From Clostridia bacterium (lineage in GTDB: Bacteria; Bacillota; Clostridia; Monoglobales; Monoglobaceae), in assembly GCA_017622215.1 (NCBI GenBank), contig JAGARO010000004.1:62001-126000 (forward strand): a stretch of 64,000 nucleotides of DNA, read 5' to 3'. The position numbers and the translations under genes were made by a program. Below, in pieces: positions 36,704-37,327 of this stretch. Every line of letters begins with the position of its first letter. Position 1 is the stretch's first letter. The notes beneath the pieces are model-generated. The model was not told where the DNA came from. It did not search any database and saw nothing but the letters and a program-made list of their open reading frames with translations.

Positions 36704-36708
36704 TATTA

Positions 36709-36743
36709 TGGCGTAGTGTCCTGATGGACGCTACGCCAGTTTT
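36709..36743 (+). terminator. Terminator of gap
   Basis: TGGCGTAG-T-GTCC, loop TGAT, GGAC-G-CTACGCCA, then GTTTT. It is followed at once by hairpin array 2. Confidence 0.8.
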
Positions 36744-36745
36744 AT

Positions 36746-36907
36746 TCGCTTTACAAGCGAGTTATATTGCTTCGCAGTGATATTTGCTATGCAAGTGGTA
36801 TTGTGCTTCGCACAGTTTATTGCGAATAAAATACCACTAAAACGATAGTTTTAATATCACTTTTGATTTATCAAAAATATCACTCTGTACGAAGTACAGA
36901 ATATCAC
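36746..36907. repeat. Hairpin array 2: eight hairpins with GTGATAT/ATATCAC spacers that flip at the centre
   Basis: In order: TCGCTTtacAAGCGA, spacer GTTATAT; TGCttcGCA, GTGATAT; TTGCtatGCAA, GTGGTAT; TGTGCttcGCACA, G; central TTTATTgcgAATAAA, ATACCAC; TAAAACgataGTTTTA, ATATCAC; TTTTGATttATCAAAA, ATATCAC; TCTGTACgaaGTACAGA, ATATCAC. Spacers left of the centre are reverse complements of those on the right; the variant GTGGTAT is matched by ATACCAC around the centre. The array lies between gap and the four-helix-bundle gene. Confidence 0.92.
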
Positions 36908-36939
36908 TTAAAAAGTCGTAATGATTAAAGAGGTATAAT

Positions 36940-37290
36940 ATGGCTGACAGTGTTTTAAGAAATAGTTCGAAAACATTTGCCAGAGAAATGGTTTTTTTAT
37001 GTAGAGAGATTAAAGCTAACTACAAAGAAGCGGTGCTGGTAAATCAACTGCTTCGTTCTGCAACTTCAATAGGTGCAAATATCCATGAGGCGCAATATGC
37101 TCAAAGTAAAAAAGATTTCATATCAAAACTTGAAATTGCACAAAAAGAGTGTTATGAAACAGAATATTGGTTGGAATTGCTTTTTGAAACAGATTGTATC
37201 GAAGAAGAAAAATATAAGAAAATGCAAAATGAATGCGGAGCTATTCGCAGGATGCTGATTTCATCGCTGAAAACAATTAAATCTAAATAA
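36940..37290 (+). CDS. Four-helix-bundle protein (23S rRNA intervening-sequence protein family, TIGR02436/S23)
   Basis: 116 residues, all helical. LVNQLLRSATSIGANIHEA is the family signature, followed by KKDFISKLEIAQKECYETEYWLELL. The family was first seen in proteins encoded by 23S rRNA intervening sequences and shares its fold with Avd accessory proteins of diversity-generating retroelements. Function unknown. No rRNA or reverse transcriptase gene is nearby. It directly follows hairpin array 2 (32 bases from the last spacer to the ATG) and has its own terminator, so array and gene form a compact unit. Confidence 0.93.
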   Translation: MADSVLRNSSKTFAREMVFLCREIKANYKEAVLVNQLLRSATSIGANIHEAQYAQSKKDFISKLEIAQKECYETEYWLELLFETDCIEEEKYKKMQNECGAIRRMLISSLKTIKSK

Positions 37291-37291
37291 T

Positions 37292-37327
37292 AAAAGCCTG
37301 AAACATATATTATTGTTTTAGGCTTTT
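37292..37327 (+). terminator. Terminator of the four-helix-bundle gene
   Basis: AAAAGCCT-G-AAAC, AT-rich loop, GTTT-T-AGGCTTTT. Confidence 0.8.

Follow-up and report, generated by a model that had tools for sequence, protein, structure and literature searches.

Between a glyceraldehyde-3-phosphate dehydrogenase gene (GAPDH, gapA) and a tagH-like gene for an ABC exporter ATPase, the genome of a Clostridia bacterium (GCA_017622215.1; 1.18 Mb; hereafter G000) holds a row of short hairpins followed by a gene of the IVP/S23 protein family. We analyzed this locus within a 64,000-nt stretch of contig JAGARO010000004.1, which we call the window and to which all coordinates refer (Table 1). The hairpin array is organized by a 9-nt linker with the consensus AGTKDTATT, present in four direct copies, a center, and four inverted copies; the palindromes lying between the linkers all differ. 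A further hairpin, H0, precedes the first linker and has equivalents at three other loci (L045, L063, and L064), and the IVP gene starts 31 nt downstream of the array. Our results strongly indicate that such a hairpin row marks small mobile elements of one family, which is common in gut Clostridia and in which each element goes with an IVP version of its own.

Table 1. Features of the hairpin array, the adjoining IVP gene, and the segment missing from a genome of the same genus
Feature	Position	Strand	Description
H0	36710..36737	+	28-nt palindrome GGCGTAGTGTCCTGATGGACGCTACGCC adjoining first linker; the element's own terminator-like 5' hairpin
Left half	36738..36802	+	Four direct linkers (L1-L4) alternating with hairpins H1-H3
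Linker L1	36738-36746	+	AGTTTTATT
Hairpin H1	36747-36759	+	
Linker L2	36760-36768	+	AGTTATATT
Hairpin H2	36769-36775	+	
Linker L3	36776-36784	+	AGTGATATT
Hairpin H3	36785-36793	+	
Linker L4	36794-36802	+	AGTGGTATT
Hairpin H4 and center	36803..36829	+	H4 at 36803-36813
Central palindrome	36817-36831		TTTATTGCGAATAAA; palindromic in some copies only, not generally among relatives
Right half	36830..36908	+	Four inverted linkers alternating with hairpins H5-H7
Inverted linker	36830-36838	+	AATACCACT
Hairpin H5	36839-36852	+	
Inverted linker, three copies	36853-36861, 36876-36884, 36900-36908	+	AATATCACT
Hairpin H6	36862-36875	+	
Hairpin H7	36885-36899	+	
IVP gene	36940..37290	+	116-aa four-helix-bundle protein; TIGR02436 E = 1.3e-31, PF05635 (23S_rRNA_IVP) E = 1.4e-27
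Intrinsic terminator-like hairpin	37292..37327	+	Downstream of IVP gene
Segment absent in G001	36705..37326	.	Replaced by 765 bp of unrelated DNA at the syntenic gap-tagH locus

The hairpin array is real and exceeds chance. Its folding scores z = -8.1 as RNA and -7.9 as DNA, with none of 200 dinucleotide shuffles equally good, and its seven short perfect hairpins per 171 bp make it the most hairpin-dense stretch of the window (mean 2.1, standard deviation [SD] 1.2, maximum elsewhere 6). An earlier account, the sequence-only reading, had described a row of hairpins whose spacer inverts at the center; the sequence is as described, and it folds about 8 SD below shuffles. Several particulars needed revision. 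The spacer is constant as claimed and is 9 rather than 7 nt long; seven of the eight palindromes claimed (H1-H7) are delimited by linkers, the eighth being the central one; and, as H0 adjoins the first linker, the unit begins earlier than stated. That account did not include H0, the neighboring IVP gene, the insertion sites, the evidence for mobility, or the complementarity between the 5' end and the center.

The IVP protein passes the curated cut-offs of both family models (109 bits versus 24 for TIGR02436; 96.5 versus 33.8 for PF05635). The solved structures closest to it, 2RLD and 2GSC, contain five chains each, and IVP/S23 has been described as a homopentamer (PMC4990558). It is also homologous to Avd, a protein of diversity-generating retroelements (PMC10053308). 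A protein search found no relatives in viral contigs.

The array design is widespread. In G000, pairs of the AGTKDTATT linker gave 29 matches, representing about seven arrays, compared with none for a mirrored control; the second IVP gene of this genome (L002) has the same array design with the linker CGATAT, and six or more arrays are solo, that is, without IVP. More than ten array sites occur in another genome, G022. Across 51 genomes of the order, CGATAT triples yielded 112 matches and no control matches, and AGTKDTATT pairs yielded 85 matches in 14 array-bearing genomes, with 28 control matches over all 51. The scan of the genome and of related Clostridia that the sequence-only reading had proposed thus shows its pattern to be widespread. 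IVP was detected in 12 of the 14 array genomes, versus 9 of the 37 others (p = 1e-4).

To characterize this association from the side of the protein, we surveyed upstream regions of IVP genes at the best 80 loci from species genomes together with further loci of the family, which gave 94 usable Clostridial regions. The upstream inverted-word score was at least 6 in 91 of these, versus 7 of 94 shuffled regions, and hairpins averaged 5.9 per locus upstream, 2.2 downstream, and 1.8 in shuffles. Nine linker classes were distinguished (AGTKDTATT, CGATAT, GCTAAAT, RTGAAAT, and others), and 29 loci conform to the strict pattern of exactly four direct and four inverted linkers. Linker sequence follows IVP clade: mapped onto the IVP protein tree, linker class changes 10 times among classed rows, or 16 times with unclassed rows included, versus 55 times when shuffled. 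Because array and IVP gene are adjacent, this match demonstrates their co-descent; recognition of the linker by IVP would be its simplest reason.

Other repeat arrangements also precede IVP genes. A second IVP lineage (L040, L047, L049, L050, L263, and L356) has tandem 7-mers of TTACTTATTAC/TTCACTATTC-like sequence in inverted blocks that lack hairpins; these blocks, too, are found directly behind tRNA genes. At L102, L109, and L119, one-directional tandem arrays take the place of inverted halves (GTGATGTAYCC..., GGCTAAATCC with long hairpins, and AGTGATGAGTGATG).

Most array copies in G000 lack IVP. Five solo copies, all in the same orientation, begin directly behind a tRNA or tmRNA terminator hairpin, and copies in the genus of G026 lie either behind tRNAs or behind TATAAT followed by H0. 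Many solo copies have a 3' tail in common, across linker classes, of the type GGCATCTAAATCGTACACTAATT or AAATATCTCTATGGTTCTGC, and a similar tail lies beyond the IVP gene at L002 and L040. The full unit appears to consist of H0, the array, IVP with or without further genes, and the tail; solo arrays would be internally deleted copies of it.

Comparison of close genomes revealed turnover of these copies. G001 belongs to the same genus as G000, and the gap and tagH flanks of the window's array are 96-97% identical in the two. In G001, the sequences flanking the tRNA-Pro copy and a partial array (L062) are joined with no array between them, tRNA-Glu and tmRNA carry plain terminators, and at tRNA-Arg the 7-mer repeat class of the second IVP lineage stands where G000 has a AGTGATATT array. 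G000-type arrays are absent from G001 at all six examinable sites, the window's included, with flanking pieces 91-100% identical. The tRNA-Cys site shows several states. In G030 the tRNA is followed by a terminator and a rubrerythrin-like gene. G026 has this same terminator and gene, separated from the tRNA by a new terminator hairpin, an array of the RTGAAAT type, and a tail, in that order. Elsewhere in the genus of G026, the site is occupied by a CGATAT array in G022 and by a different IVP element in G024, and it is empty in G027 and G028. The tRNA-Pro copy is bounded by direct repeats such as GACCAGAAAA, suggestive of target duplication. Such presence and absence between close genomes strongly indicates, at the level of sequence comparison, that the arrays are mobile.

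Two further gene arrangements may be noted here. The gap-tagH locus of G001 (L325) contains a small antisense open reading frame (ORF) and a helix-turn-helix (HTH)-like gene between two copies of one terminator (AAAAAGCTGAACGATTTTCGTTCAGC). At L254, L237, and L240, CGATAT arrays come before an unrelated ORF and the common tail, in that order, or before an endonuclease-like ORF; such ORFs are possible cargo of copies without IVP.

We consider it probable that the array is the DNA part of a small, IVP-dependent mobile element, made up of H0, the 4+4 inverted hairpin array, and the IVP gene, with deleted solo copies elsewhere. By analogy, the element can be read as REPtron-like, without a known transposase. 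In the mechanism we propose, a pentameric, Avd-like IVP would recognize units of cognate linker plus GNA- or GNNA-capped DNA hairpin. Once the symmetric array is single-stranded or has extruded cruciforms, IVP would assemble on it and promote copying or insertion of the element beside terminator hairpins, with tRNA 3' ends as the chief sites. The linker would be held fixed by the protein, and stem sequence would drift because stems would be read only as hairpins. If IVP is not an enzyme, cutting or copying would require a partner, which may be a host enzyme or a retro-enzyme. We infer the binding of IVP to linkers, and the chemistry of movement (strand cutting and joining), from these patterns.

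Several points weigh against this interpretation. IVP has no known nuclease, transposase, or reverse transcriptase (RT) domain, and two array-bearing genomes, G029 and G036, are without detected IVP, both being drafts that are 83-88% complete. Given the physical linkage of array and IVP, co-descent alone could yield the match between linker and clade. No clear tail was found behind the window's own IVP gene, and some CGATAT copies have a promoter-like TATAAT directly before H0, which suggests an RNA. The CCAGAAAA-like direct repeats noted at most of six tRNA sites come from a comparison by eye. Finally, most site comparisons involve a single close genome, so that gain and loss are indistinguishable at each site.

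The stems and loops of the hairpins bear on the form in which the array acts. Among 20 CGATAT arrays, both sides had changed in 24 of 39 stem pairs, and 84% of cells were paired, versus 27-46% with partners slid by 1-3 columns. The mean perfect stem across 508 linker-bounded segments was 4.4, versus 2.0 in shuffled letters. Stems thus covary while their sequence stays free, in agreement with the sequence-only reading, which had them varying with self-complementarity kept. That reading had named two outcomes that would count against it, absence of the pattern elsewhere in the genome and stem changes without compensation; the pattern is instead widespread and the stems covary. Stem covariation is the usual proof of an RNA, and the present case cautions that it can arise from a DNA element.

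Read on the reverse-linker strand, 227 of 437 loops, across both halves, are of the form GNA (130) or GNNA (97); 209 of these are closed by a C-G pair, as C(GNA)G or C(GNNA)G, and no mirror-type loop occurs among the 437. The third base of the tetraloop is free (54 GNRA and 43 GNYA of the 97), and the RNA GNRA rule would exclude GNYA. According to a published rule, mini-hairpins of single-stranded DNA are extraordinarily stable when their loop is GNA or GNNA, whatever the N (PMC4686876). Because the loops fit this rule better than the GNRA rule of RNA, and because loop polarity flips with the linker at the center, so that one RNA could not use both polarities evenly, DNA is favored as the acting form of the array.

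The alternative that fares best is nonetheless a structured RNA. The array would be transcribed as a small RNA or a 5' leader that binds and regulates IVP, or sequesters it in trans, and the repeats would have spread otherwise. Consistent with this, Rfam types Gut-1, which half arrays match, as a small RNA; the TATAAT of CGATAT copies stands just before H0, and the array of IVP copies stands upstream of a gene; and an RNAalifold consensus contains 15 doubly changed pairs. Loop type, however, tracks the linker and not the transcript strand, so that one RNA would have GNA/GNNA loops on half of its hairpins and mirror loops on the rest, and nearly half of the tetraloops depart from GNRA in being GNYA. 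Moreover, many copies lie behind a terminator with no evident promoter, and the turnover between genomes is typical of a mobile element. We regard a structured RNA as unlikely.

Two kinds of pairing within the array were examined, and the stronger case is that between its 5' end and its center. The sequence GCGAATAAAA at 36822-36831 is reverse-complementary to the 5' start of the array, TTTTATTCGC (36740-36749). Across 85 arrays, complementarity of the first linker and the 5' arm of H1 to the center summed to 804 for cognate combinations, versus 653 +/- 15 with centers swapped within class. As the array is its own mirror, orientation cannot be read from linkers alone and some solo arrays are misoriented in this test, which is therefore biased against the effect rather than toward it. 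Pairing between the array halves has modest support. Of 24 window-class arrays, 62% have a linker 4 that matches linker 5', versus 34% expected, and the bases flanking this pair covary in CGATAT-type arrays. The sequence-only reading had suggested from GTGGTAT and ATACCAC that the halves pair; this survives for L4-L5'. A complete ladder of four linker-linker duplexes, suggested by RNAalifold, was not borne out, as only the innermost L4-L5' stands clearly above expectation in the 24 window-class arrays and mutual information is weak elsewhere.

A role as host structural or terminator elements akin to REP sequences, with hairpin clusters insulating transcription or binding nucleoid proteins and IVP acting as a chromosomal organizer, would suit copies that lie between terminators and mostly outside genes. 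It is made quite improbable by the difference at every examinable site between two genomes with such similar flanks, by the several element classes at one tRNA-Cys site within a genus, and by clade-specific linkers, which are not expected of a general structural role. Very improbable, in our estimate, is retrohoming, in which IVP, like Avd, would be the RNA-binding partner of an RT encoded elsewhere and array RNA would be copied into tRNA 3' ends. The documented homology to Avd speaks for it, as does the common 3' tail, which recalls SINE-type retroposons, whereas the loop evidence favors DNA and no RT adjoins the element among its window neighbors, no genome-wide search for RT genes having been made in carrier genomes. 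We give almost no credence to a relative of type III toxin-antitoxin systems, in which a repeat RNA antitoxin precedes a small protein toxin: the layout of repeats and then a small gene is similar, but IVP belongs to a four-helix-bundle family rather than having an RNase fold, the units are differing palindromes in two inverted halves and not identical tandem repeats, and most copies have no protein gene. A CRISPR-like reading was dropped, the "spacers" being palindromic and no cas genes adjacent; IVP genes do occur near cas loci, where the portions of the reports available to us describe no array of the window's kind (PMC3936711, PMC10910872).

In its behavior, the proposed mobile element comes closest to REPtrons, the combination of REP/BIME sequences with RAYT (TnpA-REP) proteins. 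Both have short palindromes with a conserved short motif in opposite orientations, dispersed intergenic non-autonomous copies without the protein gene, and a cognate protein gene beside some copies; in REPtrons, motif and protein co-evolve (PMC8266576, PMC3733652). We do not file the element under REP/RAYT, because tag, protein, and architecture differ. Its tag is a linker of 6-9 nt that varies by IVP clade, and the REP tag GTAG/CGTC is absent from the foot of the palindromes; its stems are almost free; its arrays have a fixed 4+4 design with a center complementary to the 5' end; its protein is IVP rather than an HuH transposase; and its target is a tRNA 3' end or terminator. No Y1/HuH transposase gene adjoins the element in the window, where its neighbors are the GAPDH, IVP, and ABC exporter ATPase genes.

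Each half of a AGTGATATT-type array resembles Gut-1 (RF01706), an orphan motif listed in 2010 from human gut samples only (PMC2864571). The window's match at 36737-36806 scores 45.2 bits, under the gathering score of 50, which makes it kin without formal membership, and a Gut-1-like match on the minus strand (36849-36923) scores 30.3 bits; relatives exceed the gathering score (66 bits at L073; 73.9 and 57.7 bits at L201). The Rfam model covers one half only, without the inverted second half, the IVP gene, the other linker classes, or mobility. Other Rfam matches at E <= 1 (ohsC, HOTAIR, mir, and SQ1002) were at chance level, leaving Gut-1 as the sole sensible match. We found no description of the IVP-array association or of a link between Gut-1 and IVP in the open literature, a search that did not extend to subscription papers and preprints. 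The sequence-only reading, which recognized no known element in this design, is right only in part on this point, given the likeness of each half to Gut-1.

Enterobacterial RU and other MITE-type intergenic repeats are families of conserved sequence, whereas the stems of IVP arrays vary and the linkers alone are constant. Such repeats are likewise short, dispersed, and non-coding (PMC2759123). The 23S rRNA intervening sequences share the IVP protein family, have been called selfish elements, and in Coxiella include tandem heptamers (GACAGAT) directly ahead of the ORF (PMC4990558). The window's element differs in lying outside 23S rRNA, in repeats interspersed with hairpins across two inverted halves, and in the existence of solo copies. 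Unlike diversity-generating retroelements, which share the homologous four-helix-bundle protein, it has neither an RT nor a template or variable repeat adjoining the IVP gene.

Although IVP/S23 is widespread, its structures are solved, and its homologue Avd is known, the family has been without a function for some 30 years, and Gut-1 has been an orphan since 2010. Our results tie the two together, make IVP clade and linker a testable recognition code, and point to a mobile family in gut Clostridia that lacks a recognizable transposase and is found repeatedly at tRNA 3' ends. It is conceivable, though we lean somewhat against it, that this is a new class of mobile element, in which a non-enzymatic pentameric IVP would read a clade-specific linker code on sequence-free DNA hairpins and steer insertion to tRNA 3' ends; other phyla would have tandem-repeat versions of it. 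If so, the IVP/S23 family would gain its function, and 23S rRNA intervening sequences would be one insertion type of such elements. In Bacteroidota, Spirochaetota, and Cyanobacteria (L173-L175 and L177), the IVP gene lies behind tandem heptamer-like repeats, and on plasmids of other phyla plain repeats of this kind precede it in several cases; the repeats are TTAGTGA in Bernardetia, AATTCGT in Nostoc, GTAAATC in Planktothrix, and GAAAGGT in Treponema.

The surroundings of IVP genes vary. A small ORF of varying kind often lies close behind, as if it were exchangeable cargo (L002:1849-2202, L067, L068, L069, L074, L086, L117, L131, and L140); judged by eye, these ORFs include membrane protein, channel-like, methyltransferase-like, HTH, and other types. 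On plasmids of Monoglobus, Planktothrix, and Chlorohelix (L176, L177, and L178), IVP genes are situated within operons of the restriction-modification or DISARM-like type, with enzyme genes on either side.
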